DNA of 64,000 bases, taken from positions 1,984,001 to 2,048,000 of the forward strand of contig AP026126.1 in assembly GCA_030295235.1 (NCBI GenBank). Direction: 5' to 3'. Source of the DNA: Fistulifera solaris. Lineage: Eukaryota; Bacillariophyta; Bacillariophyceae; Naviculales; Stauroneidaceae. A program made the translations under genes and the position numbers. The notes beneath the pieces were generated by a model. The model searched no databases and was not told the DNA's origin. It saw only the letters and a program-made list of their open reading frames with translations. How positions within the stretch are numbered: the first letter of the stretch is position 1; every line of letters starts with the position of its first letter. Below are positions 1 to 62,300 of this stretch, one piece after another.

Positions 1-1676
1 AAGCATCGAAAGAAATTAGCGAAAGAGGAACAGCAGCGACAACAGCTGCTACGTGCATCCATTAGTCCTTCTAAATCGGTCACTACCAAAAGCCTGGATG
101 TGGTGCCCATGCGTGCTTCTCGTCGGATTCGTGGAGAAGATGTCGACGTACGACGATCGGGACGACAAGTGCGAAAGGCGGTGGATCGGTTTGTCGTTGA
201 TCATACCATTCCACAGTTTCTGACCAGCCCACTCAGCAAAAGTCGAAAGCGAACACACTCATCGTCGGGACAGCATTCTTTCCGCAGCGAAAGCTATGTG
301 CAGGTGACAGTCAAGCAGCCATCCGGTCACACGTTAGAATTAGAGGCCGATGCTGTTGTTTGTACGTTGCCTCTGGGTGTACTGAAACAAGAATCGTACG
401 AAGGAGGAGTAGTGTTTGATCCTCCTCTTCCACAGGAAAAACAGACTGCCATTCAAAGGTTGGGAACCGGCTTACTCAACAAATGTGCTTTATCGTTTGA
501 TAGGATCTATTGGCAAAATGTCGATTTCATTGGCTGGGCAGAGTCAGAGCAATCATCTTATCTTGTCCTAAATGGAGCAGCATATACAGGTGGGAAACCA
601 ATCTTGATCTTCATGTATGGTGGAAACTTTGCGAAAGATATCCAGGAATGGACAGACCAACAAATAGTTGAAGATTGTATGAAGGTTTTGCAGAAACTCT
701 GTGGCCGGCGCACAATCCCTCGTCCGCTAGATTATTGTGTGACAAGATGGGGTAAGGACCCGAGATCTCGTATGGCCTTTAGTTACATTCCACCTGGAGT
801 GGATGGTTTTGCTGAGCTAAGAAACATGAGCAAACCAGTCTACGGACAGAGTGAAAGTTTTGGTGAGGTACCCTTGTTGATGTTTGCTGGAGAGCACACA
901 ACTCCGTTCCATCCAAGCACCATACACGGGGCTTTCTTGTCAGGTATAAGGGAGGCGTATAGACTAGATAGTGTTGTTTGCGCCGACGCTTTCGAAAACT
1001 TTCAATTTTCCGAAGACGATCTTTATCAACATACCTTTACTATTGGAGAACATGAAAACGAGAATGGTGTCAATGACGTGGATGGCAATCAGGACGCCAG
1101 TGATAATTTTGCAACACATCAAGCTCGACCAGTATCATCGATGACAAACCGTGAACACATCACGACAGGTGGCTTCCATCGTCGAAGGGGAGCGTCGGGA
1201 GTTATGCGACTTAGCCGTCATGATGATATATCTTCCACCCCGATACTAACGGGAAACACGGTGAACACAGAGAGAACATTAAAAGCGAGGAGAAAGAACG
1301 GCCACAACGTCGATTACGAGCAGCTTTTGGTCTTGGTTCGCCGGTGTCTACGACTTCCGAAGCTAATCACGAAGAGAACCAAGCTCATGCCGCGGGTATC
1401 CGAGACTTGGAGGATAGGACATTGCTGAGAAGTTTAGAAAGCTATGGTGCAAATTTCGAATACATTCAAGAAGTTAGCCTTCCAGTTTACGGAGTTGAGA
1501 ACGACCGCAAGACGAATTTAACGCAAATTCAAGCCCGCTGTCATAAACTTGTAAAGTCTTCTCAGCTCCGAGCACCATCTCGTCCCCGACCTGCTATTAT
1601 GAAAAACTGGCTTGCAAAACCCGCTTTTACTTCCAAGGGGAAGCTTTGCGGCTCTACTACGAAAAAGACTCGATGA
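1..1676 (+). CDS. LSD1-like FAD amine oxidase, C-terminal part (5' end outside window)
   Basis: Flavin-dependent amine oxidase of the LSD1/polyamine oxidase family, most likely a nuclear histone demethylase. The frame is open from base 1, so the N-terminal FAD-binding fold lies upstream. Visible are the substrate-domain strand with TLPLGVLK (about 367-390) and the C-terminal FAD signature GEHTTPFHPSTIHGAFL (about 890-940). The first frame stops at 1426-1428. A frame-3 extension from about 1285 to 1676, rich in Glu/Arg and then helix-like (DLEDRTLLRSLESYG), reads as its natural tail. Either one A is missing from the AAAA run at 1281-1284, or a small intron exists; a perfect TACTAAC branch site lies at 1244-1250 with CACAG at 1266-1270. 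The tail resembles a SANT-like segment, but I am unsure. An AATAAA overlaps the end of the gene. The family call is firm; the demethylase role is inferred. Confidence 0.8.
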
Positions 1677-1875
1677 ATAAAACATGTTTGGAATGAAGTG
1701 CCACGCATTGTATTTAAAACATGCAGAATGCTGGGCTGCACACGATGTTGTTTTAACTTTTATTACTTTAAATGAACGAAATGCTCCTATGTATGTATAA
1801 TGATGTATCCACCGATTTAAATGTCTTTATGACCTGCGGTTGAACCCCAGCGCGACAGGAGGGATGACTCAAGCG

Positions 1876-3396
1876 TTATGATTCCTGTTGTTCTCCGAAG
1901 GCTTCGCGACCACTTTCCTCGACGACACTCCAGCGGCTTAACACAGCCATTATGACGCGTTCCCTGTCGTTTTTGGGTGCTTTTCGGTGGTGCACAAACT
2001 TTTCGAGTTGCTCCGCCGTCACGAGTGGATTGCCCCCACGGCAAGAGAGTATCACCACACGCCGACTAGCATCAAGCCAAAGCGACGTTGGGCAAGGTTC
2101 TCCGTACTCACAAGTCGGTACAGCAAAAATTTCCTTTCGTTCCTCACCATTCAATACGGAAATACCGAAATCGACTTGGCTGCTATCAGTTATATAAGAT
2201 CCATCTGAACGACTCGGATCTCGGCGCAAAGCAATTCCCATTAGCAGTTGATCATCATCATTTTTGGCGTGGTATTCCTGGTGGACCTTAACCGTCAGGG
2301 GGATGACATAATGCTCTCAAGGACAAATAACGTTTGCCGTGGCGGTGAACAGTTAGCGACCCAGGAAAAGAGCGATCCATGGCAACATGAATTAACATTG
2401 GACCGGGCCAGACTTTGTTTGCTAGCAAACGTAGCAGCTGCTGAGCTTCATTGAAAGCATGTGCTGCTAAAACTTCTCCGTCCTTGCTCTTAACGGCGTA
2501 GGGTCTTTTCGGAAAACATTGGCGCCAGAACGGTCCGTCTAATGCAGAAGGGAGAAGATAAACGTGTGGAACGTCAAAGCTCTCTTTCTTGATCTGACTA
2601 AGACTAACCATACTGTCGCTTTCGATCCCTGTTGCGCTACCATCACTGCTGAAACTGCAAACGCTTGTCGAGGATACCTGTCTCGGGTAGCAAATCTTAT
2701 CTTGTGTGGCCTGAGTGGATGACTGGCGAATGCTGTTCCCGAGCAAATCTTGTATGCTACTTGACCAGGAGTTCGGATTCTGCCAGTTGAGTTGAGCGAC
2801 AGCTTCGTACGTGCATTCCGTTGGAATAGCCACCGCTTGGCCTTCTAAAAGCTTGGCGACAACTTCCTCCATGCCGGATGTAGTTGGCTGAATAACAGTA
2901 GGTTGCGGGGTAGGACTTGCGGACAAGGGTCGTTTGCTAGCTTCCAGAGGACCAGGATGGTCGATCTTGATGCGTTTCTGTGATTATAGAAAGGATCAAT
3001 TGTGTAAGAGAAGCTTTCGAAAAAGATGGTTTTAGCCAATAATCGTCGGATAGCGCGGACGCACTGAATCGGTAGAGTCGATGAGGTGCGTAAATCCCCG
3101 ATCATAAGAACTCGCACACTGAATTATCTTTGCTGCATCCTTAGCACGAAAGATATCGCACAACAACAAAAGCTGCATAATTTACATACCCGGTGATTCT
3201 GTAAAGAACGTCTCACTAAAACCTTTCGGCGTTTTCGACGAGCCGCTGCCGCAGCAGCCGCAGCTTGAGCTCGTTCATGGTCCTCTGACTCCAAGTCACT
3301 GGGGAGTGAGTAAAGACGTTTAGGGGAAGGAGAAGAAAATTGCGTTGCAACCGAAGAAGGCGCGTCATTCGTCAGCGGCGGCGACGCAACCTTCAT
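1876..3396 (-). CDS. YrdC/Sua5-like domain protein, two exons, one frameshift
   Basis: Resembles YrdC/Sua5 threonylcarbamoyl-AMP synthase, which makes the activated intermediate for t6A37 in tRNA. Exon 1 (3190-3396) encodes a basic Ala-rich leader; a GTATGT donor opens an intron at 2978-3189 that ends AATCACAG. Exon 2 shows VAIPTECTYEAVAQLNW, like the family's 'AYPTDTVYGL', then KRPYAVK and LANKVWPGPMLIHV, like 'RPWPGPLT'. After LRALCHP the frame breaks at the GGGGG run 2298-2302; removing one base gives CHPLTVKVHQEYHAK and continues to the stop at 1876. The usual SxN motif after this point is not evident, and a long Ser-rich insert separates the conserved blocks, so this may be a divergent YrdC paralogue rather than the housekeeping enzyme. 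Its start is the first ATG of the open frame. Confidence 0.65.
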
Positions 3397-6951: not shown

Positions 6952-8000
6952 ATGAAACACGAAAGAAGGCACTCCGTCTATTCACAGCACCCACCGGGAA
7001 GCGAAATTATCTTCCGTGTACCAGCTACGGACCTGACGTTCGTAGATCGACTCATCGTGTCCGTCAGCAGTCTTACGATTATAGGATCAGTTGTTTGGGT
7101 GCCGGCATGTATTGCATGGGCGTGGCGACGATGGAAGATAGTCAAAGATAAGCGACGAAAAGCTCTTTATGCAGCTTTAGCGATTGCCACGTCCATTCTT
7201 CTGGCCGTTGGGCCGCATCGGTCACCACATTTTGGGAAGACATTGCAAGTCAGGAAATGGCGACTCTGGCAAGCTTGGCTTAGATTTATTGCCATGGAAG
7301 TTATCTCTGATACAGCTAGCAACAAAAGATCGATAGATGTGAAAGAAGAAAAAGGCAATACTGGCTTTTGTGCCGCATGGTATTTTCCCTTTGCATTTGC
7401 CTTTGCGGCTCTGCCAGACATTGCTCAATCCGCCGCATTCGGTGTATTTCGTCCTGTGGTGGCTTCTGCAACCGCTCTATTTCCCATTGTTCGAGACTTC
7501 TTATCATGGTGTGCCGCTATGTAAGTTTCATATTATTATTTTCGGCGTTTTTATTGATCAGTCTCACATGTTTGAACAGCGACGCGAGCAAATCGTCCGT
7601 CGATAACGTTCTTTCTAAAGGCGAACGAATAGGAATCGTACCTGGAGGAATAGCAGAAATATTTGAAGGTTATCCGAAGCCGATGACCAGCCCCAACGAA
7701 GAGTACAGCATCGTACGAAAAGGATTTTTGCGCATGGCCATCAAACACAATTTACCAGTGATTCCTATTTACGCGTTTGGCGCAACCAAAATGATGAAGC
7801 GTCTCGATTTACCTCTCCTGGAAACTATATCGAGATGGCTCAGAATATCTATTGTACTTTTCTTTGGTGTTTGGGGGCTACCGATCCCTTTCCGGCAAAG
7901 ACTTTCGTATGTGATCGGACGACCGATCCAGCCGCCCAGCCATGGAAGCGGCGACGAGGAGCAAGTTCGAGCCATGCAAGATCTCTTTGTCAAGAACTAG
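6952..8000 (+). CDS. DGAT2: Type-2 diacylglycerol acyltransferase (DGAT2-like), one intron
   Basis: Membrane acyltransferase of the DGAT2 family, expected to make triacylglycerol from diacylglycerol and acyl-CoA in the ER. Two N-terminal membrane segments are visible (about residues 29-52 and 66-84). Exon 1 ends at 7520 (CTAT|GTAAGT) and exon 2 starts at 7580 (GAACAG|C), a 59-nt intron in phase 2. Exon 2 holds the family blocks IDASKSSVDNVLSKG, IVPGGIAEIFEG and RKGFLRMAIKHNLPVIPIY. The segment that should carry the active-site HPHG motif reads in frame as GNTGFCAAWYFPFAFAFAAL. In the next frame the same bases read AILAFVPHGIFP. Two compensating one-base shifts, in the A5/GG run at 7349-7355 and at TTT 7390-7392, would restore it. 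The family call is strong; activity depends on which reading is real. Confidence 0.88.
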
Positions 8001-8296: not shown

Positions 8297-9598
8297 TTAC
8301 ACTCGCATAGTGGAAATTCCAGCAGATGACATGTTAGTGACAGAGTTTGTCCTTTTCGCAACGAGTTCCATACTTTGGAAAAGACGCGAAAGGTCAATGA
8401 TGGATTCTTCGTAGTAACCAGTGTCTTCTTTTGAACAACGGTCTTCAATTAAATCCGGAGCTGTCAAAATACCATCGTCCAGCGGAATACTGTGCGGCGG
8501 TGCAGTGCTCCGATATATCATAACGCGGAATTCGAGAGAAACGCGAGTCGTATCAGTAGTATTTGCTAAATCGAAATGTATGCATCGAGACCCGTCAAAG
8601 ATGTAACCCAGTCCAGCGGATTTGGCTAGCAAAGGATGCCAGTCTTCACGTCCGGGATGAGATTCAACATAAAGGGCATTGGCTCCGAAAGAAGGTGTTA
8701 ACGGGACATGGAACTTTAGACAACCAATACTGTGTCCCGAGGCCAGATCACAGGTAGGCGAAAGAATTTGTGTGTGCGGTCCGGGTAGGTGAATGTGAAT
8801 TGTAGGGAAAGCCTGATATCGATAGACGATACATCCCGAAGAATTTGAGTTGACGTGTAGCATTCGCTTTGATATTGCCATTTCATGGAGGAGTGGTATG
8901 CAAAAGAATTCACGAAGTTTTCGTAAGCGGAATGAATGCGTTCTCTATTCACCGCTTGACTTAATTTGGATTGCAAATCCGAACATTGTTCTTCGCCATA
9001 TACCTTGTGAATATTAGCAAGATCGGTAACTCCTAATGTTGAAGCAACAATCTCATGGAGAGGATGGGTATGCGTATCAAAAAGAAACACTCTCTCTCCT
9101 CTAAAAGCATTGTAAGGCACGCCTATTGAACTTGCAATGGATGCGTGCACCGCAAACTGTTGTCGACTGAAACTCTTCTGCCTTGTATCTCGCGTCGACT
9201 TTAGAAACGGTTCCATGAGCTTTCTTAGACCAGAATCATGAAAATCTGGAGCTTGCAAGGCACCGTCTGTGTATTTCAAAATAGCTGCAGCAAAAGCAAG
9301 ACTGTCCTCATCGTTGGTGACAACACTTTGATCTGATTCCGAACTCGTCACGCAAGATGCAAATGAACCTTCGGAGAAGGTACTGAGGCCTTCCGATAAG
9401 CCAGCAAAGACAGACTTACTTCGGCTCATTCCAAGACCTCCCACGTTACTTTCTATTGATATTTGATTCATCGCGCCAATCCGATTCAAAGACTCTGAGC
9501 ACGTCGACACGAAGCCAAATGGAGTATATGCTTCTCTAGACGATGGATTCGTTGATTGAAAAGCTATTTAAAAGAGCTCCTGGATTGCTCTGGGTCAT
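8297..9598 (-). CDS. StrG/phytanoyl-type 2-oxoglutarate dioxygenase relative, frameshifted
   Basis: The C-terminal half resembles the StrG-like cupin dioxygenases: FHVPLTPSFGANALYVESHP, then GREDWHPLLAKS, FDGSRCIHFDLANTTDTTRV and SLEFRVMIYR. In that family an HxD...H triad binds Fe(II). Here the distal His (CIH) and the DLASGH segment remain, but the first His is replaced by Thr (PTCD), so canonical iron binding is doubtful. Two one-base shifts interrupt the gene: AAA at 8881-8883 (one base short) joins the two main frames, and TTTT (minus strand) at 9559-9562 (one base long) links an upstream start, MTQSNPGALLNSF, at 9598. Without the latter the first ATG is at 9471. The N-terminal 100 residues are Ser-rich. 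Substrate unknown. Confidence 0.55.
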
Positions 9599-10502: not shown

Positions 10503-11788
10503 ATGTCTGGCCCTGTTGAAATACAATATCAAGGTGGACCTATGACGACCGTAAACCCCAATCAACCTGTCTTGCGACGTGCGACCTATGTTTCTGTAGC
10601 AGATTTGATAACCCCTTACAAAATCGAACCGGCTGCCCTCGATGAAGAACTCAACAGGCTCAAAGATCAGCAGCAAAAAAATCAATGAAGAACCGGAAGC
10701 GCTCCACCACGATGGAGTACCTACAGAACTCGATACTAGTTTGTCACAAAAACGGCTCCAGCCACCTCGTGGAGGCTTCAATTTGTGCTTGTAAGTAGTC
10801 GAAAAGAAAAACACAATCCTGCGCTCAATGCGGCCTCAATCATTCATTTTTTCAATGTCTTTCACAGACTTGTGGGCAGTGTCGAAGTTGTTGTGGACAA
10901 AAATCGCGTAGATGGCTCGCGTGTTCGATTGGCGGAAGTGTTGGTTGGAGATGAAACAGGTTGCGTCTCACTTCGTGCTCGAGATGAGCAGATTGATATT
11001 TTGAAAGAGGTTTCGCAGCGTTCGGGAGCCGTTGTCCTCCGGAATTGTACTTTAGAGCTATTTCAGGGGCGTCATATACGGCTGGCAGTCACCAAATGGG
11101 GAAAGTTGAGTGTTTATCCCGATCAGATCGCAAGCACCCCTGCACCCCCCTCCGAAAATGAACATGGATAGGAATTTTTCTATGATAGATCTGGTGCGAG
11201 TAGCATCCACTGGGAGTGAGCTAGTGAAAAGCAGTGACCAAGAGGAGCACCGCAACGAGCAAAGTCATCAACAAAGCATGGCAGGTCGAGGACATATGAA
11301 TCAGGGCCGTCGCGGAGGAGTAAACCGCCGAAATTCACCTCGTGGAGGCTCGTCTAGCGGATACTCTCCTCAGGGGGATGCTGCAGCAGCAGCATCTGCA
11401 ACAACAACTATACGCAGATGCCACTGCGCTTCAATACCCTCCACCAGGAGGCTTGCATGGTTACGGGACAAGGTATATGGACGGTGGAATGATGCAACAA
11501 TACCCTGGTCTCCACATGATGCAGCATCACGGTTATGATGCTTTACATACTCAAATGCCAATGTATCATGTATCACAAGGCCGCCATCATGCCGATGTGT
11601 CATCAGCCATGTCAGCTGGACCCTACCGACAAGACATGCACGGAAATATGCCGCAGTCATTCATGACTACTCCCGCTGCGCATTACTCTCGAGACCCTAA
11701 CGAAGCCAGAGCACATAACCATGATCCCACTTCGTCGCCAAGGATGAACCCTCGCGCTTCGACGTTTGATCCTGAACCCAAAAAGTGA
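10503..11788 (+). CDS. OB-fold nucleic-acid-binding protein (SOSS-B/plant OB-like), one intron, three frameshifts
   Basis: A single OB fold with the plant/protist pattern of SOSS-B-like single-strand nucleic-acid binders: RVRLAEVLVGDETGCVSLRA, ARDEQIDIL, VLRNCTLELFQGRHIRLAV and TKWGKLSV. Exon 1 starts at ATG 10503; the intron is 10791-10867 (CTT|GTAAGT...TTTCACAG|A). The C-terminal part is Gln/His/Met-rich and disordered. Three homopolymers each carry one base too many: A7 at 10675-10681, C6 at 11145-11150 and G5 at 11373-11377. Removing one base from each yields a continuous frame to the stop at 11788. The SOSS-like role in DNA repair is inferred; RNA binding is equally possible. Confidence 0.75.
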
Positions 11789-19100: not shown

Positions 19101-20748
19101 CAAAAGTCGCTGTTCACACCAAAACCAACACCTGCGACGGGTCCATTTGGACTTACTTCTGGACCTTTTGACCCGCAAATAGTTGGCTCTCATGTTTTTG
19201 GAAGGATGGCATTTGCAAGGTCTCCTACAGCAATGAGTGATGCTGGCTTTCGCGCAGACTATGATTCGATAGCAAGTGAAGATGAAGCCGCAGCTCGTGT
19301 TGCGTATACAGCGTCTGTGGCAACCCACGTGGATTCGGATGTCTCGATTGATCGTACAGCTACGAATATCACGCGAACAGCCATCGCCGTTCCGCCCTTG
19401 GCGCGTTATGGGGCTGAACCTTCATACTTTCTAGGTATGCGTTCTAGGCTGACCAATGACATGCTTCGATTTTTACAGGCAACGGATATGCACCTGAAAA
19501 ACAAGAACCAATAAAGGCTGCAGCCATAGAACGTATGACACGTTTAGTGAATACGATGTGGCCACGTGCTCAAGTCAAGCTTTACGGAAGCAATGTTACG
19601 GGACTTTCTCTGCCAACTTCAGATATTGACTTTGTTATCTGTCTCCCTGCTGTGCACAAGAAGGCTGTTGCGGTAGCTCCTGGGGTTCTCGAAGGAAGAA
19701 ACGCCATTAATGAGTCGTCTCAAAAACTATTGGCTCGCACTTTGAAAGGGGAGTCATGGATTGATCCACGTTCGATGAAACTTATTGAGCGGACCGTTGT
19801 TCCTGTAATCAAGGTATCTACAAAAGACACAAAGGCTCGATCGCTGCAACTTGACATTACCTTTGACAGCCCTGGCCACCATGGAATAGAAGCAATTCAA
19901 ATGGTTACGCAGATCATGGACGAGCTGCCGGTAATACGTCCGCTGTTGCTGATTTTAAAACAGTTTCTCAGCAATCGCGGCTTGCTGACGGCTTACACTG
20001 GCGGTCTCTCGGCTTACGGTCTTTTTCTAATGGTTGCTCGTTATCTCCAAGAGCAAGAGTCCTGGGGGGACTGTGGTTCACTTTTGATGGGATTTCTTGA
20101 CTTCTATGGTAACAACGTAAGTTTCTGAAATTTATTTGTCATTCTTACAACAGTGAACCTTTTGTCTAAAAATGGCTAACAAATCATGCGCAGTTTGATC
20201 CGCGATCCATTGGTATAAGTGTTAAGAACCGTCAGTATTTTTCTCGGCTTTCTGCTGCCATGGGTGCCGCCCCACAATCAGTCCCTACAAATGAGACTGC
20301 ATGGAGACCAATCGGACCGAATCACGTACCGACAACTCAGTTCTTTCGTCGTTACAGCTTCAGCGACAAGGGCAACATTGATGCTCATCGCGGTGCGAAT
20401 CCTTCTGTCATTGTCCAGTCAGCAACATCGATACCGGTGGCGACGAATAACAATTATTTTCGAAAGCCACTGACTCAGCACAACAACGAAATTGATCATT
20501 CGGCCATGCCCTACACACTTGATCCTCTCTTGATTGAAGATCCGTTGAATGAGTCAAACAACGTTGGGCGAAACGCCTTCCGTATATTTTCGGTTCTACG
20601 GGCTTTTTCGGATGCTCACAGGGCGCTGCTAGCCTCATTGGAATGGGACTTGCATTCTAATGTCGAGTTTCAGGATGACAGTGAATATCCGCTGCTGAAA
20701 TGCCTGTTACAGAACGAGGACGTTGTTTTTAATGACATAGGTAGATAA
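16155..20748 (+). CDS. Non-canonical poly(A) polymerase, Trf4/PAPD5-like, three exons
   Basis: Nucleotidyltransferase-fold RNA polymerase of the Trf4/5 type, which in other eukaryotes oligoadenylates nuclear RNAs for exosome decay or trims ncRNA tails. Exons are 16155-19434, 19479-20116 and 20194-20748. The first intron is only 44 nt (G|GTATGC...TTTTACAG|GC) and the second 77 nt. Around residue 1130 come LYGSNVTGLSLPTSDIDFVI, which has the GS and DxD metal ligands, then the third Asp in LQLDITFD. The PAP-associated domain ends with DPLLIEDPLNESNNVGRNAF. The first roughly 1,090 residues form a large extension with a conserved-looking N-terminal 280 residues, a Ser/acidic low-complexity region and a coiled coil near residue 955. 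Typical Trf4 proteins are about 600 residues, so the extension is unusual. No frameshift is needed. Confidence 0.85.
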
Positions 20749-35135: not shown

Positions 35136-35858
35136 ATGAGTGCGGGACTGGAGAAAAGTATCCTATTGATTCGACATGGCTGCACACACATGAATGAGTA
35201 TTTAGGGGAAACACATTTCGTTCGGTGCACCTCATTTTACCGATGTTTTTGAGGATACAAACGAACGAGATACATATTATCGAGACTCACCGTTGTCACC
35301 ACGAGGAGTTCGACAAGCTCAGGAGCTATCAAAGCGAGCGGGTTCTATGTTAATGAATGATTGTGATTTGGTGGTAACTAGCCCTTTGACAAGGGCGCTA
35401 CAGACTACGGTAATTGGTTTCGGAAATCATATTCAACCTGATACGCCCATTATCGCTCTTCCTCAGGCAGCGGAACGACTTTATTTGATATCGGATCAAG
35501 GGAAACCCCGTCATCAATTACAAAAGCGTTTCCCCGCGTCGATTTCGACACCGCGTTTGAAAATCACGACACAGATCAATGGTGGTTCACACCGAATCAT
35601 TCACAAAACTACGTCGAATGGCGACCGACCGGTCGTGGTCAAAAGTATGCGTGCCCTGGTGAGCCGCAGCAAGACTTTGACAATCGCATGCAAGCATTAA
35701 TGGAGTGGTTAGATTCTCGCGAAGAACGAACCATCGCTCTCGTGTGTCACTGGGGCGTCATCGATTGGATGCTTAATACGGATTTTGATAATTGTCAATG
35801 GAGAAAAGTGCCGTTTTCAGTGTTGTTGGAAAAGACAGCTCGGTCTCGGACGTCCTAG
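35136..35858 (+). CDS. Histidine phosphatase (phosphoglycerate mutase-like), two frameshifts
   Basis: Starts MSAGLEKSILLIRHGCTHMN, with the catalytic RHG at residues 13-15. Deleting one G from GGGG 35205-35208 continues FGAPHFTDVFEDTNERDTYY and SPLSPRGVRQAQELSKRAG, the family's 'D.PLT..G..QA' block, then LVVTSPLTRALQT. A C is missing from CCCC 35532-35535; adding it continues RVDFDTAFENHDTDQWWF and the second catalytic His in ERTIALVCHWGVIDWML. The stop is TAG 35856-35858. Such proteins dephosphorylate small phosphomonoesters; this broad-range plant/algal type has no fixed substrate. Neither frame alone would make a working enzyme. Confidence 0.75.
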
Positions 35859-42936: not shown

Positions 42937-44702
42937 TTAATGTGTTGCAACGACGAAGGAAAAGACACGCGCCCCGACCGAGCAAATATCCCCGTTGCAA
43001 AGTGGGACACTCCCTCCATCATGGCTTAAACGCCTTCCGTTAACAGTGACAACATCAACAGCGGCTAAACAACTCATCTGAAAATCGCTCTCGGGAGTCG
43101 GGGCAAACCGAATACATGCGGAGGACTCACTACAGGTCCCAGGGGCGCCTCCGATGTGACAGTCTATTCGTCCAATCGTGCCACCGATCGGTAGAACGCC
43201 AAGTCCGAGACGCTGATAGGCGTGCTGCGTTGTCTGGTTAGCACAACCTATGATTGAAACTGTCCCTTGAATAACACTGATGAACTTCTCGTTTGATCCA
43301 TCCTCGTCGTAATCCACTACCAGTAGCTGTATTGCTGTCATCGAATTCTCTTTGGACCTAATTCCATTTGTGTCAACAAAACTTTGCAAATCCCACCCGC
43401 ACGACGCTGGCGACAGCCCGACGAGCATCGCGATACCTGCACGGTTGATAGATTGATCTGGTAAACAAGGTCTCAAAACGGGAGGTGCAGGTGACATCAG
43501 ACTACCGTTATATAATACATCCCGGGCTCCTTTCAGTCTTTTGGCAGCTATTGCCATGAGTTCCAGGTCGTCAAGATTTTCGAAATGACCGTTTCGAGAT
43601 AAAATTGTAGCTCTCGCCACACCTTTAGTGATAATTCCCGTTATAGATTCCTTTAACCTGGCTGAAACAGTTGTCGAAAAACTTTTCCCTTTCCTTTCCG
43701 AAATGACTTTGATGTTCTTTTCGCTCCCCAAATTTCCGGTGCTAGATCGTTTTCGTTTTGGAGACTTTTCGGTCGACAACGGCAACTCTGGCTTAGTAAC
43801 ATCTGCGTCGTCATCTTTCTTCTTCATGGGGGTACGTTTCTTTTCTCGGTCATAAGCTCGGGAGCAGAAATTTTACCTTCTGCTATATCTTGCTTTTCAC
43901 GTTCATAGGCAGCGGCGGCTTCTTCACCTTCTTTTTGTGCTTGCCTAGTCGCTTCTTCGCCATATAGGATAAGATGTGCCCATGCGTAAATAGCAGCTGC
44001 ATCCCATTCGCTGTCAAATGTTCCCAGATAATGATTTTGTCCCATAAAAGAAATCTGGCTCTGCCATCGGTCGTGACCTTTTCTGGCTTGTCGACAAACC
44101 CCTCGGTACGCATAAACATGTCTCTTCGAATTCCCTCCAGTTCTTGATGTTTGGCGCGGGTCTCGAAGAAGAGGTTTGACATCCGGGGGTAGATCCTTCG
44201 TAAATATTGTGAGCGATTTCAACATGCACATTTCAAACTGCCAATAAATTTCGAAGGCGCTTACCTTGATATTGATGACCGAAAGAGCAGGTACGACGTT
44301 CGCAGCACTGCCACCGAGGCCACTGGTAGTTGATAGAATGTCTTCATACACGATTCGGCTTCCGTCTTCGCTGAAGTTACATTCAACATGCTGGTTACTT
44401 TTCTTATTCAGTTTAATGATCTCATCGTATTTCCGAGCAGCATCGTCAACGGCATCAAAGAACAAGATGGACTCTTTTATCTCACTTTCTTTTACCCTTT
44501 CCCCGTCGATCTTGATAAAGTGCTTACCAGTGGGGTTAATCCATACTCCACGGTATCCTGGTACTCTGATCGAGCCATCGGGGTCCTTTTCTTCTGCAAT
44601 TGATGGGCCCGACTGTGATGGTCCAGGTCTTCCTCCTTTCTTTTTCCCCACACCGCTCTTTGGACCGCCGCCTTGTCCTACAGTGGGAGGAGCGCCACTC
44701 AT
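42937..44702 (-). CDS. AP2/ERF-like plus FHA-like protein, one in-frame intron, one frameshift
   Basis: The N-terminal part has two AP2-like units: GYRGVWINPTGKHFIKIDGE and, after a linker, YAYRGVCRQARKGHDRWQSQ with HYLGTFDSEWDAAAIYAWAH, a plant-like AP2 DNA-binding fold. A 69-nt segment (44196-44264; AAG|GTAAGC...TACGAAG|GAT) has splice signals and a length divisible by three, so it is probably an intron hidden in the frame. The first frame stops at 43824. The next ATG overlaps the stop; adding one base to the GGGGG run 43828-43832 joins them. The second half ends with an FHA-like strand set (VDVVTVNGRRLSHDGGSVPL, then NGDICSVGARVFSF). One fused transcription factor is my preferred reading; two overlapping genes (ATGA) is the alternative. 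Confidence 0.65.
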
Positions 44703-44765: not shown

Positions 44766-47144
44766 TCAGCACAAATCACGCATCGTAGTGGATTGGGCTT
44801 TTACTCTACCTAAGGCGCTAACACCGCACGATCGTTCATGATGGGTTCTCGCCATAGAAGTAACACAATCAGTACTGCACGTTCGACAAAGCCAAGTTCC
44901 AGGAGGGGCATGTAACGCCGATACCTGAAACAGCATCATATTGAGAAGCACATGGAATAATGACAGAAGTTCACATTAACTCTACTCACATGCTGCCGCA
45001 AGCCTTGTTCCGACCCGAAGTGTCGTCCGCAACATACAGCCATTCGATATGCAAGCGTTCCCGCTACCTGACCATTCGCTCCTGACGATGTAGTCGACGA
45101 AGCGGTCGTGACCTCTTCGCACAAATGTCCATGCGCCCGTGATAATTTCATTACATCCAGAATAGGTTCCAGTCTTGCGCTGCCCAACTCATAGCGAAGC
45201 CAAGCTTTTTCTAGGTTGTTACCGAGCCAGTTCAGAGTCCATCGGCGTGAGGAAGACACCTTCCCACTTGAAACGAATTCCTCATCTGTCACCACGCGCG
45301 GTACGGGGCTACTTGAACCTAAATCATCGGATCCTAGACTGCCGGATAGACTTTCTACGGCAATCTTGTCCATGTTTGTCTCCTCAATGTCCCCGTTATG
45401 ATGAATAATCATCGAGCGTGCCACTAGTCGCCGAAAGTGATCCATGCTATCCGTGTCGCTGGCTATTCGACTTCTGTCCCATTCTTCACGAACGCAACCG
45501 GCGAAATGGGGCAAAACAAAGGAAACAAGGCCGGAAACAGGAACCGCTTCCAAATTGTTCCTTTGCTGCGTAGCAAATGTACTCGTGGTGACGATTCGAT
45601 GACGTGTCGTCAAGCCCACTTTTGCCTCTTTTGCTATATTGGCAGGAATACTATCCAGTTGAAAATCCCACTCTTTGAAAATTGGCGTTCCGGCTAACCC
45701 GATATGTTGATCGTTCGTGCTAAATATTCCTGTATCCCACAAGCTGCGGATGGCAGAGTTGGTATCGCTCTGAGCGGCTGCCATGAACCCAACTCCCTGG
45801 TCCACGACGGTAATGTCGAAGGGTATCTGGCAAAAATGTAAGTAATCCTTCAGAAAGATTTTGTATGAAGTGATCAACACATGGAAAGGCGCGTCAGGAA
45901 GACCATTTGCATGTGGAAAGTATCTCCTCCATTGACGTCGATTACGTTTTGTCCCGCCGTAGGGTAAAGCTCGAAGAGAACGAGATTCGTTGGCCGTTAT
46001 AAGCCCTAGGTGCTCTTGCACAATAAGAAATTCTCGTGCATATAGATTGACCTCTGGTTCCGTAGTGATAATCAAATGCGGCCCCATTCGATCTCTCAGT
46101 ATGTCGGCAATGCGTCCATGTCGATTTTTCCAGTCCAAATCCTGATAGATAGCGTGACCAGCACCTTTCTCTAAAACGCTCAAAAATCGGTTCCGGCAAT
46201 TGTTCCGCCACCACTCCGTAATCGCTGCATCATTTGGCTGGTAGGGAAAGGAATGTTCCATTTCCTGATCGGAATCGTCGTCGTCACTGATAATTGCTTG
46301 ATGTCGCTCGCGCCAATCAAAAAAATTCGGTAATTTCAAAAATCCTGATTGTGACTGCGATGCTGCGTAATCCAGCCTGTTCCGACGCCTTAAGTCTGAT
46401 CGCCTTATAGCATTCTGAACGACCTGGATCGTCCGTTGACCTAAAGTTTGTGCTTCAATGACCACAGCGCCTAAATTGATATTGCTGGTCGGTTTCTTGC
46501 CGATTTCGGGATGCTGAGGTACCGCTAAAATTTCAATGTCGCTTCCCGGTGTTAAGGCTGTCCAGACCATATTTCCCCCAGCACATAAAATGGCCCTGGA
46601 ACTTGTGAAACGAAAGTCCAAAGCTGCAGCAGATGAAGCCGGAGTATTGCGGGTAAATTTGGGACCTTCGGAGGATGCAGGGACAGTTGACTCCAAGGGA
46701 ACTTTGGGCGCCGAGGATGCAGTCTCCGTTTTAGTAATCTTTTCGTCCGCTTGGGATTCATCCTCTTTGACGCTTTTCCGTTTCGCGTGTTCCTTATTAT
46801 CATGTGATCGTCGTAAACAATCTATGCGCTTCGTTTGAAGCTCTTTGTACTCCAGTAACTTATCCGGTAGCTTGGACGCAAAATCTTCGTCTTCTTCATC
46901 ATCTTTGTCTTTTTTCTCCTTTGAGGTATGATTGCTTCTCGATAGCATCAATAAGCGTTGTAGCAGCAATGTCAAAGATAGAAGGAAGAATGTCTTTCAG
47001 TGCCTGCCGTTTGCGCTCTGCTGCTTCGTGATCGAAGCGTGTCGACACCAGAGGTTCACGTAAAACTGTTTCTTCCCACAAATCTAGTCGATCATCTTTG
47101 AGTTGCTGCGCCGCATCTCGAAGTCTCCACGGTTTTTCTTCCAT
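44766..47144 (-). CDS. SNF2-like protein with degenerate ATPase motifs and C-terminal zinc-finger region
   Basis: The layout follows an SNF2 N-lobe: GPHLIITTEPEVNLYAREFL, then LPYGGTKRNRRQWRRYFP, FHVLITSYKIFLKDYLHF and a TVVDQGVGF segment, ending HIGLAGTPIF. The Walker A site (usually DEMGLGKT) reads IYQDLDWKNRHGR and the DEAH/DEAQ box reads DQGV, so ATP hydrolysis is unlikely. The C-terminus has VCCGRHFGSEQGLRQHVSAL plus WLCRTCSTDC and RTHHERSC, zinc-finger-like. Exon 2 (44766-44924) follows an intron at 44925-44989 (CAT|GTGAGT...TTTCAG|GTA). An A6 run (T6 at 46910-46915 on the plus strand) has one base too many and separates the first 80 residues, which start at ATG 47144. Perhaps a chromatin scaffold. 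Its stop lies 63 bases before the AP2-FHA start on the same strand. Confidence 0.5.
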
Positions 47145-47388: not shown

Positions 47389-47391
47389 TCA
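47389..47391. repeat. Left target-site duplication (TCA)
   Basis: TCA directly before the left terminal repeat matches TCA at 48726-48728 directly after the right one. Confidence 0.7.
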
Positions 47392-48725: not shown

Positions 48726-48761
48726 TCAGCTAGAAACGTTTGGATTGAGTTGGATGTTTTA

Positions 48762-50690: not shown

Positions 50691-51634
50691 ATGTCACGTC
50701 CCGAACTAACCGGACCGGCCGCACATTTCTACAATGAAAAAGAGGCGCGCAAATATGACTCGTCGTCTCGCATGGTCGGCGTGCAACGTGAAATCACGGA
50801 ACGAGCTATTGAATTGTTGCGGCTTGATCATTCACAACCGGCCTACGTGTTAGATATCGGTTGTGGCTCGGGTCTTTCTGGACAGGTATTAGAAGAAAAA
50901 GGTCATTTCTGGTTGGGTTGTGATGTTTCTCGCGACATGTTGCTGGTGGCGCAAGAGCGCATGCACAATCAAGCCGAAAACGACGACGACGACGATGATG
51001 ATGATGAAAGCATGGACGGTGATTCGAATCATAACATCAAAAAACAACGAAAGTCTACGGGAGATCTCATGCACCATGATATGGGGACAGGATTGCCATT
51101 CCGACCGGCAACATTTGATGCATGCATCTCGATTTCGGCCCTACAATGGCTTTGCTATTCCAACTCGGCGCAACAGAATCCGCGTAGACGTTTGACCCGA
51201 TTCTTTTCGTCATTGTATACAGTTCTCAAACGCGGTGGAAGAGCTGTGTTACAATTCTACCCCGAGACGGCCGAACAGGCTGTCCTCATTACCGAATGCG
51301 CTACAAGAGTAGGCTTCGCTGGTGGTGTCGTTGTGGATTATCCCAACTCGGCGAAAGCCAAGAAACATTATCTAGTGCTCAGTTTCGATCGAAATTCCGA
51401 ACAAAAGCGCAAAGCAGCGCTCAAAGATGGTTTGAGCTCGGCGGCAGAAGAGCAACAATCAGTTCTCGTGACAGGCGCGAGTCGAGAAGGAACCAAAAAA
51501 GCTCCCATTCGCAAAAAGAAGGGTGTGAAAACAAAGGAATGGATTGTTCACAAAAGGAGACTCAGCGCAAGAAAGGAAAAGCGGTTCGTCCCGACACTAA
51601 ATACACAGCTCGTCGGCGTCCTACCAAATTCTAG
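50691..51634 (+). CDS. BUD23: 18S rRNA (guanine-N7)-methyltransferase BUD23, one frameshift
   Basis: SAM-dependent methyltransferase that modifies 18S rRNA during small-subunit assembly, together with TRMT112. It begins MSRPELTGPAAHFYNEKEAR, the family start. Motif I is VLDIGCGSGLSGQVLEEKGH; the motif II Asp is in GCDVSRDML; then comes GTGLPFRPATFDACISISAL with QWLCY, and RGGRAVLQFYPE. An acidic insert, (GAC)n-encoded DDDDDDDDES, follows motif II. At AAAA 51552-51555 one A is missing; correcting it restores the conserved basic tail KKETQRKKGKAVRPDTKYTA, with RRRP, and the stop at 51634. Uncorrected, the frame runs to 51695 with an unrelated tail. Converges with the PCD-like gene; 87 bases separate the stops. 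Confidence 0.92.
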
Positions 51635-53783: not shown

Positions 53784-56138
53784 ATGTCAAAAGAAGAAAA
53801 CATAGCAGCTCAACTTCTTTTGTCGTCAGAAAAAGAAGGAGATACGAAACAACATCGCGAGCTTTTCAAAGATTGCGCTCTCGTAGAAATCATTCATCTT
53901 CACGACTGCTTACGAGGATCATTAAAGGCACTGGAACACGATGTACAACAACTAGCCAAAGCGGTGCATTCTGGTTCCGAAGAACAGCAACGAATGCTAG
54001 AAAAGAAAGTCGCAGGGAGATTTCAAGTGATTTGGAGTGTCTTTCGAGCACATTCTTCTGCAGAAGATGAATTTATCTGGCCGGCTTTACAGCGAAAAAC
54101 ACAAGGACGAATCCAGGGACACAAACACAAAGGGAAGGACGCTATTATTGAGCAAGAAGAATACGAAGAAGATCACGCGGATGAGGAACGTATGTTTTCC
54201 GAGATGGACCGATTGCTCACACGATTGAGGCAATATCTACTCAAACCGGATTTGTCACAGCCCAACAATAACCAGCACACCGAACAAGTTATAACGGCTA
54301 TCGCTCAACACACGTCGACACTATCACAGCATTTAATGCATCATTTAAAAAAAGAAGAAACACAATGCATGCCGCTGGTTGCGCAACACTTGTCAAAAGA
54401 GGAAATTCACGAACTCGTGGGGCAGATCATGGGCAAGCGCTCCGCCGATACGATTGCACAAATTATGACAATGGCGGTTCAAAGTTTGAACGAAGCAGAT
54501 CGGATCGAAATGGTCAAGTACATGAAGCAAGCCATGTCAGGCACGTTCTTTGATCGGTGGCTTCTCATGTCGGGATGGATGTCACACGATGCACCAAATG
54601 CGGATATTGCGCCCAACGCGAGACCCGAACAACCAGGAAATGACGAACTTGCTGTGAATGAAGTTCAGGCGGATGAGGCACTAAATCGTAATTTGAAACG
54701 ACGTGCAGATGCTGAGGAACAGGATGACACCAAGCGTGCGCGAATCGTTCCTTTGGAGGATGAAGAACTAGAGGAAGCTAATAATTCCGGAGGATGGACA
54801 AGTCCGGAAGAACTGGAAAAGTTCATTCGTGCCATTGCTACAAATCCAGCGTTAACGGCAGCGCAGAAGAACTCGACTATACAAGGCCTGCGTGATAGTG
54901 TTTGGAAAAGTAACAAGAAACATCGGGGATCTCGTCCAGCGGCCCCGACGGTTGTTAATTCCACTACCACCAGTTTTCACCACCCTCGTTTTCCATCGGC
55001 TGAACCTGGTCGCCCAGCTCTAGTCACTGCTTCCTCCACGCGGCGAGTGACACCGCCATCCATGTATTTCAAGAAGAACAAGGCAGGGAAAGTCGTAGTG
55101 ATATCGCCTAATGACTTGCCTGCATCGTCGTCCGAACCCCTGCCTCTGTTTTCGGCGTCAGAGATGGCACCTACATATCACGATGGTGCTGCAGCATCTG
55201 TGCTGGGATGTCCACATTACGCTCGCGCATGCAAACTGCGGCATCCCAATTCAGGGCGCTTGTACACGTGTCGATTATGTTGCGAACAGCAGCGGGAATT
55301 GGCCAGTGGTGATCCGGACGACCCACTTGACCGTTATGCCGTTACGGAAGTCTTGTGTATGCAGTGCCATGCGCTACAACCTGCTGGAGATCGTTGTATC
55401 AATGCGGAATGTGAATCAAGAGGAAAACCATTCTCCAAGTATTTTTGCCGCATCTGTCATTTGTACGATGATGCCGCCAATAAACATATCTTTCACTGTC
55501 CCTATTGCAATTGCTGCCGTTTAGGAAAAGGTCTTGGAATCGACTTCCGGCACTGCATGGTACGTAATGCGATTGCAAAAATTAAGTTTATGATTTTCGG
55601 TAATGCTCACAAAATTCTTGCCTGTTTTCTTCGCAGCGGTGTAACGCCTGTGTATCGCTCGCTGACGATGACCACCAGTGCATCCCTCAGAAATTGCAAG
55701 GAAGCTGTCCAATTTGTCATGAAAGTCTCTTTCAATCGACTGAGCCTTTACGTGGTCTGAAATGCGGCCACGTAATGCACATGTCATGTTTCACTGAGTA
55801 CCGCAGGGGGCACTCGTACACTTGTCCGTTGTGCATGCGGTCTATGGACGATATGAAAGGTAAGCTTTCACAAAGTGAATTGGATGATCTCCTACGTGAC
55901 GCACCTCACAAGTCATTCGTGCCTGTTCTTTGAAGACTATTTCGCCATGCTGGATGCAGCCGTGCGCATGCAACCCATGCCGGCAGCCTATCTGACAACG
56001 AAGAGCAACATTTATTGTCAAGATTGCGGGAAAACTGGACAAGTACAGTATCACTTTGTGGGTCTGAAATGTTCCGATTGTGGAAGCTACAATACGAGAG
56101 AGATGGGACGAGTTGACTGTTCCGATGAGGTGCGGTAG
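53784..56138 (+). CDS. Hemerythrin-CHY-RING E3 ligase (BRUTUS/HRZ-like), three exons
   Basis: Resembles plant BRUTUS/HRZ iron sensors, which bind iron through hemerythrin domains and ubiquitinate regulators of iron uptake. One HHE domain spans about residues 30-260 with metal-type His/Glu in IIHLHDCLRGSLKALEHD, FRAHSSAEDEFIWPAL, YEEDHADEERMF and LMHHLKKEE. The CHY zinc finger starts near residue 474 (GCPHYARACKLRHPNSGRLY), followed by the CTCHY ligands, then a RING at about 611-655 (CPICHESLFQ, CGHVMHMSCF, CPLCMRSM) and a zinc ribbon (YCQDCGKTGQ, LKCSDCGSYN). Exons are 53784-55559, 55637-55859 and 55936-56138. At 733 residues it is shorter than plant BTS, with one rather than three hemerythrin domains. 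Frames are intact; the start is the first family-like ATG. Confidence 0.9.
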
Positions 56139-56363: not shown

Positions 56364-58783
56364 TTACTCAGCGTCGTCGTCATCTGGTCCCCCGTCAAAG
56401 ATCATTGGAAGGTCGCCATCCGATTCGTCACTCCCCTCGGCTGATTTCATTTCGCATGGTGGAGCACATGGGATCGGCACCTCCTTTTTCGATTCGGCCG
56501 TCTCACCGCGAGAGCCACCAGGGACTACCTCAGCTACACTCAACTTTGCTCTTCCAGCACGAGGGACAAGCTCAGCTACGATGTCTTTTTGTCGTCTATC
56601 ACCGTCATTGGGAGTTGGTGCTGAAAACAAGGTTTCCTCTTGAGTTATCAGCTTTGACTTTTTGCTAGTCCCCCCTTCGTCACTCTCTGGCGTTGATCCT
56701 ACCCGTTTTAATGATAAGTTATCTGGTTGCGCCGTGTCCGAATTCATGTGCTCCAAAATTGCCCGGCTGAGCATTGAAAACTCAGCATACATGTTTTCAT
56801 CAACTGGTCTGGATCGAACAACGGACAAAGCTGGAATCCGCGCAAACATTGCCGATTCGGAGGTGCGCGATCCACCATATGCAGCTTCCGTTCCAGGGAC
56901 GCCTATTCTTTCGGGCCCATGGACAGCAAGTGCGGCTGTCCTCAAGACATCATGGCTGAGGGAACTGGAGGCCCCGTCTCTCCACGGAACCTGCGCGCAT
57001 GCAGATGCCAGCTTCAAAATGTCGCTACTTGTTGTTTCCATTTGAGATAACTTCCCTGATTTTAATTGTTCCAAATATTCAAATGTGATTTTCTCGATCA
57101 AATTGCGCATGTTGAGCGATAAGTATTCCCCCGCTACAAGGACAGTTGACGCGAGACATCGTGCTGAAGCAGTCAAAATGCCGTATCGATCGAACACAGA
57201 TCCCCATTCTCCCAAGTCTTTCCCATTGACATTCAGATCATTTTTACTCAATTTCAACGATTCCAAGAGAAAGCCAGAAACATACTGAACGGATTGTTCC
57301 AAATCTCTGGAACATTCCTGTGATTTTTGCCGTTGGACAGCGTCGATTGTGGATCTGGTCCACACGCTAAGATTGCTGATCGAAACGAGTTGATGGCGGC
57401 AATTCGTGCTGGAGTCGACCGGTGCAGCCAACGTCGTCGCGAACCTGTATATTGCATGGCACTGGAGGGGTCCACCACTTGACGAACCGTAGCAGAACTG
57501 GTCGTTCGAAGGCCAGCATGAGCGATTTGGTAAATCTTTCTGGTGTAGGAAAGTGGTGGCGCAATTTCGAGCAATCCATTCAACAACAAAAGCCCGCGAA
57601 TAAACACCACATTTGCTACATCCCGAGCTAGAACAATCGTAGTAAGCAATCCCCCATCCAAATACTCGGCACGTAGCCGATTGTTGGTACCATGAAAGGA
57701 AGTCTCCGCCGTCAAAGGGAATGTCATCATTGTTTCCACGACTTGTAATATCAAACCAACGTTGAATTCGACAACAGTAGATTCCTCTTGCCGTTGCAAC
57801 AGTCGTACACCCAACACGACCAAACCGTGAACTAAACTCAGAAAACGATGCCCACGCTTTGTGTTATCATTTGTCTCACTCAATAGACTAATCCACTTAT
57901 CTAACAACCTTTCCAACAATGAATCTTGTTTCAGATGTTCTTCGAGGATGTTACTGTTTCGGTTCGGTTGCACCGTCGGGACAGTGCGTACAAGTACAAG
58001 CATTAAGCCGGACATGACCCCGTCCAAACGAGGCCCCGAAGGAAGAGCTGTCAACAATCGTGCCACCGCTACTTGCACATTTGACTGGTTGCTGTAAAAC
58101 AATGCTTTCCATGCCCATTCACTGAGGTTGTTGAGCAGATCCGTGCTCCGTGCTAATTTGATACCGAACAAAGTGACGAGCGCTGCCGCTGATTGCAAAA
58201 TGGCTTCTCTCATGAAAGATGTTTCCTCATCGTCGTTGTCGTCGTCGTCCTCGTCATCATCACTCGTATTAGCCTTTGTTTCTACAGTCGCTAATTGCTG
58301 CAACAACTGCTTTCCTGAAGTTCCCATGATTTCGAACGCTGCGATAGTACTTGTATCAGGATTTTGTGCAATACGAATCGTCTGACAGATAGTATTAATG
58401 AGATCCGCCGCTAACGCGACAAGAAGACTGGACTGATGATTGGAATAGGAAGCAAGAATACGTAGAATAGCCGATACAATCAATTGAGCATCGACCGTCG
58501 GTCCTTGTGACGAGCGTTCGTCGGATTTTGACGACTTCTTTTCTCCTCGTTTTGTACTTTGCGTGGAAGCATTCTCCAAAACCGTTTGTGCATCATGGTG
58601 ATTTTGATAAAATAAAGTGCCTCTCTGACTTATAGTCGAAATGAGGAGTTGCAATGCATCCAACACTGTTTCATAAAGGTCACAATCCTCGATATTGTTT
58701 TCGTACAATCGTAATAAACGAAGCAATTCCTGTCCCGTCGGCAAGGTGTCTGTGGGGAGAGGAGGCTGAATCATTTTCTTCAT
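56364..58783 (-). CDS. Helical-repeat protein, weakly RIX1/PELP1-like, one frameshift
   Basis: About 805 residues in two overlapping frames that join when one base is added to the T5 run at 57324-57328 (minus-strand A5): the text then reads LSNGKKSQECSRDLEQ. Most of the length is leucine-rich alpha-helical repeat (LLRLLRLYENNIEDCDLYET, LILQVVETMMTFPL, VVFIRGLLLLNGLLEIAPPL). An acidic stretch (DDDEDDDDNDDEE) interrupts the N-terminal third. The C-terminus is disordered and ends with an acidic GDLPMIFDGGPDDDD. That ending and the overall size recall RIX1/PELP1, which act in pre-60S ribosome maturation, but no diagnostic motif is seen. Treat it as an ARM/HEAT-like protein of unknown role. Confidence 0.5.
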
Positions 58784-59393
58784 AGAGGCCTGTGTGAGAC
58801 AAACATATCCTTTAGTTGCAAGTTATCCAGAAAATGTTGTTTCCCCCAGAACATGCGAAAGAAAATAAGCACGGGTGGAGGAGGACGCGAAAGAAACGCG
58901 AAAAGTGTGCACGAAAATTTTGCCAGAAGTGGCTAAACTTGGATTCCGGATTCCTTCCTTATCGATGAGCGTCGAGCGTAGAGCCTCTCTAGACCTAGAG
59001 CCTTAGAGCTTGGAGCTTAGTCTGATAAAATGCGACTACCAATTATCGCGCCTATTGCTACTAAATATTACCAAGGCAGCCATTTTCATTATCAACAAAG
59101 ATATGGTACCATCAATGGATTCAAAACGTCGAAAAGAGGAGAATTTTGGCGACGTTCGAAAATCGACGTAAGTTTCACGTACCCGTAGCTCTCGCAGGGA
59201 AATTACCGACAAAGGGCAACCCGGATTTCGTGTGTTTCGCGGTTGACCTGTTTCGACCTGATGATCTCCGCACGCGAGGACAATCGGACGAAGATACGGA
59301 AGACATTTTGCAGCTTTCATTCCAGCATCATAAAATTCGACTTGTTTTACGTTAAGCAGCTTCAAGCGACCTCCTTTCACCTAACAAACCAGA
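58784..59393. other. Divergent intergenic region with dispersed repeat
   Basis: Holds the second copy of the 48762 repeat at 59164-59265 and a run of short AGAGCTT/CTAGAG words at about 58979-59020. No gene is supported. Confidence 0.45.
59164..59265. repeat. Dispersed repeat, copy 2
   Basis: CGACGTAAGTTTCACGTA, GCAGGGAAATTACCGACAAA, AACCCGGATTTCGTGTGTTT and TTTCGACCTGATG align in order with 48762-48845, with an extra roughly 17 bases near 59240. Confidence 0.6.
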
Positions 59394-62300
59394 ATGGCGC
59401 TTTCTTGTTCTCCCGGAGAGGCTGTTTATACACTTTTCGGAGCCGGAGTCGTCGTACATCATGACCTTCAATTGCAACAATACTGCGTGCGTTTATGGCG
59501 AATTCCTGGAAAATCTATTGCGTCTTCCGCCGTAGCGTATCTACAAGCTTCAGCAATCATCGAGAAGATTCCGGTAGCTCCCGGAATGTTTACGAAACTC
59601 TTACGATCCTCGAAATCCGTTGAAGAAGAAGAAGAAGAAAATAGCAAGGAAGTACTCGTGCATTGTTACTATTCCACAAACAAAACTTTTCTCGTTTCGG
59701 AGGTTCTTCCTGAAAGCAACGAGAAAGAAGAATCGGTAGAGTCATCTTTAGCGCTGCATCGCAAACAATCATTACCGAAGCATGTCGCCGTGCTGCAATC
59801 TGTCACATCCCAACAACTGCAACCAGCACCGGCCGCTCAATTTTATCCTTTCCTGGAAACTCTCATGAAGAGGGCGGATGATACTGTCGTCATGACACGA
59901 AATATGTTACAAAGTGAACAAACGCAGCAATTTCTGCAACACACGGACCGCGTCACGTCACAAGTGGTGCAAGCCACCTCATTGTCCGCCAACGACGTGA
60001 AGAATGTCGCACCTGCGGCGGAACAAGGATTGCATCAAGTAGTCCAGCTGATGAAAGACGAATCGTTGACGGAATTGTTAAAAACGTGTAAGAGTCGTTT
60101 GGATGAACTCGTACGCAGTACCGATATGTCCAAGACGACGCAACAAGTTCTTGAAAAGACGGGTATCCGCATTCAATTGCCCGAAAAGGCTTCCTTACAA
60201 ACTACGCGAAAGGCCGCGTTGGAGGCACTGAATGATTGGTTGGAACGTCATAACAACGGCGAAGACTGGCATGCGGTTCGGGAGGAACTCGCGACGCAAT
60301 TTTCCACCACATTTGATTCACTCGCGGCAGCGGCACAAATCCGATCGTCAATTGCAACAAAGGTTTGGTGAGATCTCCGACAAGACGGCCCTGTGGCAAC
60401 AAGCCACGGGGAGATTATTACAAACACGGTCGGCTACTCTCTTTTTTGGAGGGCGCCACTCGGCTACAAAATCGTGCGGTGGCCTTATTTCGGCAAGCCA
60501 ATTGGGCCGGAGATATTGGTTCACATTTCACCAAGTCATTCACTGAGGGAGATGCTGCGATGGCTCGTGTCAAATCTTTGGAGCTGGGTGAGGCATTAAA
60601 AAGTAGATTGGTCCATGCCATTGAGCTGAGAAGTGAATCGATTGGCGGATTGGATGGGATTATCGCGGGCGCACTGTCGACTCTCAACGACAAAGGAAAT
60701 GGCGATATTCAAGCATTACTTTCGAATTTGCAGAAACAAGCTAGCTCGGCAACAAGCAACGCGCACGAAACGTTAATTACTGTATTGTCGTCGCAGAGCG
60801 AGTACCGCGAAGCTGCTCTGATGCGACTCGAGAGGGTTTTGTGCTCGCTTTCCAGTCATTTGGAAGGAACACCGCAAGAAATTGCCGCAATGGCTCGTGG
60901 GAAAGGAGGAACGCATAAGATTTTTGAGCCAATTGCCAAACAGGCCATGCAGCAGATCAACCATCATTTGGATGCAGCTGAAACGCAGATCAAAGATCCA
61001 ACCATATTGCACGTGTTACAAAAAGTCAGGAAGATTATGTCGGGAGAGATGTCTCCTGACGATGTAATGGATGAAATCGTATCCGTTTTGAACGATGACA
61101 AAGTAGTAGCAGCCAGCGAGACGATTGTGCAGCATAGTGAGCATGTTCTCGATGCACTTGAGGGCGTTTCGGGTAACAAAGCCGTGGCCGATGCTCTACA
61201 AATAGCTGAGCGTGCTGGAATTACAAAAGATTCAGTGCTACAGGAGTTTGGGAAGCTTAATGTGGATGAATTGATTGGGACGGCCGGAACTGCTGTAACG
61301 GATGAGAAAGCTCGGCAACAACTACTGTCATCGGCCACAGATGCTGCTTTGGATTTTGCACTTCGCGTCTTGCCGTCCATGCCGATACCGCCTTTTGAGG
61401 GAGTGAAAGACGGGCTTATTTATCACATATCCAATCTATCAATGAAAGGATTCCGGGTCAAAAAGAAGATATTCATATTGTTTTAGCAGGAATGCGAGCG
61501 ACGAAAAGAGACCATAGCTCTTCCAGATTGAATACGGAAGATAACAGCTTTTTCTCCTTTCGAACTTACCAAGGACGACTCCATGGAAGTTCAAGAATTA
61601 GAAACTCAAGTCAAACCAACGGAGCTACTGATCATAGATATACGAGAGATATCCGCAGTTTTTGATAATGCTGAGTGGAGTTTTGAACAAACATACCTCC
61701 CTTACCTTAAGGGAGATGGGAAAGTCGATGTGAAGATGAGTGGTGGGGCGATACGACTACAATTTGAATTACGATGTCGTCGAAAGCAAACCACAGAAGG
61801 CGCTGAGTTTTGGGAGCCCGTTTTATGCTTACATGATAGGGAGTGCACTATATCGGATGTTGACATGAATTTGCAGGGTGATAGTAGACTGGCATGGATC
61901 ATCAACAAAGCTGCAGGAATTTTTCGAGTTCCACTTAGAGATTATGTCGTACGAACAATCATTCGTATTATCGCCGATCGAAGCGGGTGGATTCTTAAGC
62001 GTCTGAATGATGTTTTGTCGCCTTACTGGGACGTTATTCTTCGTACAGCGAAGTTGAACATGGTACGTTGTTCATCATCATACCATGGTAGTGACTTGCC
62101 TCTTCTTTGTCTCATAAAACGCTTTAAATGAAGAACGACCTGGTTGAGGCGGACGAACATGTAGTTGTAGAAGAAGTAAGGAGTCAAGCTACAGTTATTG
62201 AACTCGTTTGGCGTGAGCGGCTTCCTCTAGGCATGAACTTACTAACAAACGATCCTTCTGGTTTACTAAAAGTGGTGGATTTTCCTCGTGGAAGTCAGGC

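Follow-up and report, generated by a model that had tools for sequence, protein, structure and literature searches.

In programmed ribosomal frameshifting and transcriptional slippage, a conserved protein is split over two reading frames. Two other systems also come close to what we describe: residual homopolymer insertions and deletions (indels) in long-read assemblies, treated in parts of PMC8812927 and, for two other diatoms, of PMC8147415, and the fractionation pseudogenes that follow hybridisation, a term used in a passage of PMC5935921. Here, we compare these systems with the broken reading frames in a stretch of 64,000 nucleotides (C6:1984001-2048000; hereafter, the window) from the oil-rich diatom Fistulifera solaris, which is described in sections of PMC13276009 and PMC5935921 as an allodiploid with two homoeologous subgenomes. 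It is nearly certain, in our assessment, that the broken frames of the window are uncorrected single-base consensus errors in a nanopore assembly, that is, an ordinary data artefact and no real feature.

Like the homopolymer indels described for long-read assemblies in the portions cited above, those found here are mostly single-base, enriched in runs and gene-breaking; here, however, a third of the coding gaps fall outside runs, and the homoeologous copy lets errors be assigned to a side. Unlike in frameshifting or slippage, both directions of change occur, and at private breaks (length differences confined to one subgenome copy, as opposed to shared breaks, where the frame changes in both copies) the homoeolog needs no shift. 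Fractionation pseudogenes have in common with this locus that one homoeolog of a pair looks broken, but here no other decay lesions were seen, selection was not relaxed, and both subgenomes were about equally affected.

Frame breaks in the two subgenome copies

The assembly GCA_030295235.1 is given as Fsolaris_ONT_v03 in reference 197 of PMC12159174. The genome comprises 51.7 Mb in 61 contigs, of which C5 carries a collinear homoeologous counterpart covering most of the window. We take the ONT in the assembly name to stand for Oxford Nanopore. The alignment of the window with C5 contains 53,091 aligned bp at 10.1% mismatch, in blocks that are 77-91% identical, with some stretches of the window unaligned. 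Along this alignment, a frame tracker scoring the codon substitution pattern together with codon use delineated 45 coding segments (40.6 kb).

Breaks were about as frequent in one copy as in the other. Of the breaks that the tracker placed, 18 belong to the window and 17 to C5 (one event, at 60445, being counted in both), corresponding to ~0.44 and 0.42 per kb of coding sequence, and across six parameter sets these counts ranged over 14-22 and 12-24, respectively. Window-side breaks affected 14 of the 45 segments and C5-side breaks 13, with 22 segments broken in either copy and 5 in both. An earlier reading made from the window's letters alone (hereafter, the sequence-only reading) had stated that more than half of the genes were broken, a share that the 14 of 45 segments do not reach; it holds when exons are merged by eye into ~29 gene units, a manual count and no tool result, and the shared sites are included (17 of 29).

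The sizes of the gaps also differed between coding and non-coding sequence (Fisher p = 4.6e-9). Coding segments held 33 one-base gaps, 1 two-base gap and 18 whole-codon gaps, compared with 147 one-base gaps, 157 of other non-codon sizes and 92 whole-codon gaps in the rest of the alignment. Because true frame-breaking mutations should follow the non-coding spectrum, the coding spectrum speaks for error. Runs of at least four bases, as measured in the longer copy, held 21 of the 33 coding single-base gaps and only 5.6% of coding bases (p = 8e-19). With default settings, none of the 13,491 codon pairs showed a nonsense substitution, and the other five settings together gave one, in a single setting (1 of 13,331). 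The median ratio of nonsynonymous to synonymous differences (pN/pS) was 0.108 in the 22 broken segments and 0.153 in the 23 unbroken ones (p = 0.08).

Run lengths in plastid contigs and published sequence

Two further contigs, C60 and C61, assemble the same plastid DNA separately and disagree with each other. Their psbA regions, compared over 3,882 columns, show 28 gaps and 0 substitutions, with all 28 gaps being C61 contractions of A or T runs of at least five, and a second psbA copy on C60 differs from C61 by 26 gaps and 0 substitutions. In a third plastid stretch (2,789 columns), all 18 gaps are short in C60 and 17 of the 18 lie in single-base runs; the contig with the shorter runs switches between plastid stretches (C61 vs C60). 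Short-read correction is described as unreliable within repeats in a part of PMC8812927, a difficulty of long-read assemblies that the plastid copies may illustrate, and poor correction in repeats may lie behind their disagreement in run length. The two contigs (232,645 bases for C60 and 116,223 bases for C61) carry plastid genes (loci L012-L017 and L029-L040); together they hold three copies of psbA, and C60 has psbD at two places. A plastid open reading frame on C61 (L031:6-866), which presumably resembles the ATP synthase beta subunit, runs into an unrelated tail and ends prematurely, as a frame error would give.

Run lengths were also compared with published sequence at 8 places, all outside the window, corresponding to 3 of the 7 guides and 2 of the 17 listed primers in PMC13276009. 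Two of the eight are T6 runs that the assembly shortens; it retains one A5 and one G6, and the four places without a run of at least five are exact. The shortened runs lie in the dde genes: the guide target given in PMC13276009 has T6 in both genes, and the assembly reads T5 at both of the two places. According to the same paper, 16 of 27 clones made with a guide pair containing the T6 target had large deletions in one dde gene. One shared shortening is therefore documented if the published T6 is correct, as the working guide suggests. A published F. solaris guide target is exact at two places, on C38 and C39, and a primer for one homoeolog is exact once, on C39, which supports the assignment of the assembly to this species. 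An apparent shortening of a published G run had appeared in a variable-gap search; exact search found the run intact, leaving no evidence for error there.

Within the window, four breaks are common to both copies (19488, 33922, 35532 and 51552), and all are of the short type. In the homoeolog comparison, these four would look alike whether they are errors or true run lengths. A shared tracker jump at 44976 was left undecided and kept out of the four, and the shared frame change at 62105 would be due to a likely intron of 71 bases.

Alternative explanations

Most of the breaks arise independently in one or the other subgenome copy; the few that affect one run in both copies we attribute to identical sequence context, which would produce an identical basecalling bias. 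Uncorrected long-read assembly error had been preferred by the sequence-only reading as well, and this preference is borne out by the private breaks on both sides, about equal in number, by the size spectrum, by purifying selection on the broken genes, by the self-disagreement of the plastid contigs, by a published T6 shortened in both homoeologs, and by the ONT-named assembly. For any individual site of the window, error is an inference, as is the cause proposed for the shared breaks. Several points weigh against consensus error. The long-read type of the assembly is taken from its name. The tracker prefers open frames, which makes the comparison of coding and non-coding gap spectra partly dependent on it, and lesions of other sizes may fall outside its coding segments. 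Although the breaks had been called homopolymer shifts, which suits the 21 gaps in longer runs, the remaining 12 of the 33 single-base gaps in coding sequence are in runs no longer than 2, and the term therefore covers only part of the story. Both directions occur, as had been noted from the letters, with 11 of the 18 window-side breaks being extra bases and 12 of the 17 C5-side breaks missing bases, so that plain homopolymer contraction describes only some of them. In addition, the third plastid stretch shows 3 substitutions, and the published A5 and G6 are correctly retained, which means that run shortening is not universal.

Three alternatives were weighed against consensus error. In real gene decay, one gene copy of the allodiploid would be losing its function and the single-base indels would be true mutations, a view to which the redundancy of homoeologs and the confinement of most breaks to one copy lend themselves. 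However, in 5 of the 45 segments both copies carry a break, only 0 to 1 nonsense substitution appears across the six settings, one non-codon gap besides the one-base gaps is found in coding sequence compared with 157 in non-coding sequence, and the broken segments show no relaxed selection (pN/pS of 0.108 vs 0.153); we regard decay as very improbable. Restoration of the frames at expression, by programmed frameshifting, slippage or RNA editing, could account for the conserved protein resuming past a break and for the four breaks found in both copies, where the need for a frameshift is conserved in the C5 partner. At private sites, in contrast, that need is not conserved, as the partner gene stays in one frame; moreover, the contexts, as seen by eye, vary in base, run length and direction, and a shared shortening relative to published sequence is known elsewhere in the assembly. 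The sequence-only reading had already ranked slippage and programmed frameshifting as less likely, and the private sites agree with that ranking; we would give such restoration hardly any credence. A narrower form, in which some of the shared breaks (19488, 33922, 35532 and 51552) are true run lengths that predate the divergence of the two parents and are overcome by slippage or programmed frameshifting in the diatom nucleus, is likewise extremely unlikely. Finally, the frame changes might be misread spliceosomal introns, as fits the apparent shared break at 62105, where a GT-AG intron is seen in both copies. Private breaks are unlike introns because an intron would appear in both copies, whereas here the two copies align collinearly across the site with a difference of a single base, and the likelihood of this explanation is accordingly minimal. 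Consensus error thus remains our explanation for the broken frames of the window.

Individual sites and the genes they interrupt

All 20 single-base shifts listed in the sequence-only reading were inspected in the alignment of the window with C5, and the list largely stood. Sixteen sites differ in length from C5 in the direction claimed, at most 45 bp from the listed position (1281, 2298, 8881, 10675, 11145, 11373, 24913, 35205, 42164, 43828, 46910, 57324, 60337, 60442, 61460 and 61549), the difference being one base at 15 of them and a net two at 60442, which is therefore ambiguous between the copies. The actual break is offset from the listed position for 1281 (~1240), 8881 (~8900) and 43828 (~43846). 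At three more sites (33922, 35532 and 51552), the run length is equal in the window and C5, yet the frame changes in both. The site at 9559 was not supported, with equal run lengths in both copies and a surrounding stretch that fails to track as coding in the alignment. The tracker and the alignments brought up breaks absent from the list, at 7865, 38938, 55898 and ~34008, as well as the shared one at 19488. The breaks are given in Table 1.

Table 1. Coordinates of frame breaks and of a likely intron along the window.
Position	Strand	Feature	Evidence
1239..1240	+	Private, window short (listed as 1281)	Alignment, tracker; C5 carries an extra base of its own 54 bp upstream
2298..2302	-	Private, window long, G run	Alignment, tracker
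7864..7866	+	Private, window short; not listed earlier	Alignment, tracker
8900..8905	-	Private, window short, A run (listed as 8881)	Alignment, tracker
10674..10681	+	Private, window long, A run	Alignment, tracker
11145..11150	+	Private, window long, C run	Alignment, tracker
11371..11377	+	Private, window long, G run	Alignment, tracker
19482..19492	+	Shared, short type, A run; not listed earlier	All 6 parameter sets give a tracker jump at 19488
24913..24917	+	Private, window long, A run, poly(A) polymerase gene	Alignment, tracker
33922..33926	+	Shared, short type, T run, leucine-rich-repeat protein	Frames conserved between copies
34004..34010	+	One extra base vs C5, same gene as 33922; not listed earlier, outside tracker count	Alignment
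35205..35208	+	Private, window long, G run, histidine phosphatase start	Alignment; at tracker-segment edge, hence outside its 18
35532..35535	+	Shared, short type, C run, histidine phosphatase	Alignment, His_Phos_1 on both sides
38938..38953	-	Private, window long, amid substitutions; not listed earlier	Alignment, tracker
42164..42166	+	Private, window short, within AAA ATPase domain	Alignment, tracker, AAA on both sides
43843..43848	-	Private, window short (listed as 43828)	Alignment, tracker
46910..46915	-	Private, window long, T run	Alignment, tracker
51552..51555	+	Shared, short type, A run, BUD23-like 18S rRNA methyltransferase	Alignment, BUD23 on both sides
55898..55914	+	Private, window long, amid substitutions; not listed earlier	Alignment, tracker
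57323..57328	-	Private, window short, T run	Alignment, tracker
60333..60339	+	Private, window long	Alignment, tracker
60440..60447	+	Two-base difference between copies (listed as 60442)	Tracker counts it on both sides, as 60445
61460..61466	+	Private, window short	Alignment, tracker
61546..61553	+	Private, window long, T run	Alignment, tracker
62063..62133	+	Likely 71-base spliceosomal intron, no error	GT/AG ends in both copies, fitting frame change; boundaries by eye

Known protein families continue across some of the breaks. The AAA profile is matched at positions 1-29 upstream of the break at 42164 and 20-131 downstream of it, and His_Phos_1 at positions 21-100 before the break at 35532 and 98-156 after it. 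A BUD23 match precedes the break at 51552, and the last 26 residues of the protein follow it in another frame (human BUD23 256-281, E 0.003). Known families thus back both sides of the shared breaks at 35532 and 51552, while for 33922, in a gene with leucine-rich-repeat (LRR) families in 32138-33928, the backing comes solely from the frames that both copies conserve. In the gene broken at 24913, PAP domains lie in 23143-24342, and PAP_RNA-bind matches in 24556-24936 at E 0.00046, below its cut-off. Of 20 pieces around breaks that were scanned with Pfam (E up to 0.01), 14 matched no family, and at most sites it is therefore conservation between the copies that defines the frames.

Among 20 places listed for AAA genes, open-frame lengths differ within likely homoeologous pairs, which would fit breaks elsewhere in the assembly, with introns left unsorted and the cases uncounted. 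In a small sample of light-harvesting gene pairs off the window, viewed by eye, no clear break was seen, and the genes were shown open over most of their length.

Three stretches of the window, of 1-2 kb each (5464-6803, 25788-27894 and 47327-49246), have no collinear C5 match at the threshold used and are possible insertions or fast-changing spacers; within the last of them, a 59-base unit occurs twice with 100% identity (47579-47697). At 22421-22723, a 34-base unit is repeated in tandem (8.9 copies, 97% matches), and a related stretch of the C5 region aligns with it in inverted orientation.

Implications for the F. solaris genome

Work that builds on this assembly without correction by accurate reads can go wrong in its gene models, in its gene counts and in any claim that a gene has been lost from one subgenome. 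The F. solaris row in a table of PMC12159174 starts with 26,808, which we take as the gene number, and an earlier annotation, as given in a section of PMC5935921, counted 9,007 pairs and 2,441 single genes; split genes may be part of the gap between the two. The source of the duplicated genes in F. solaris is called unclear in a passage of PMC12159174, and the allodiploid genome is likely to be their cause.

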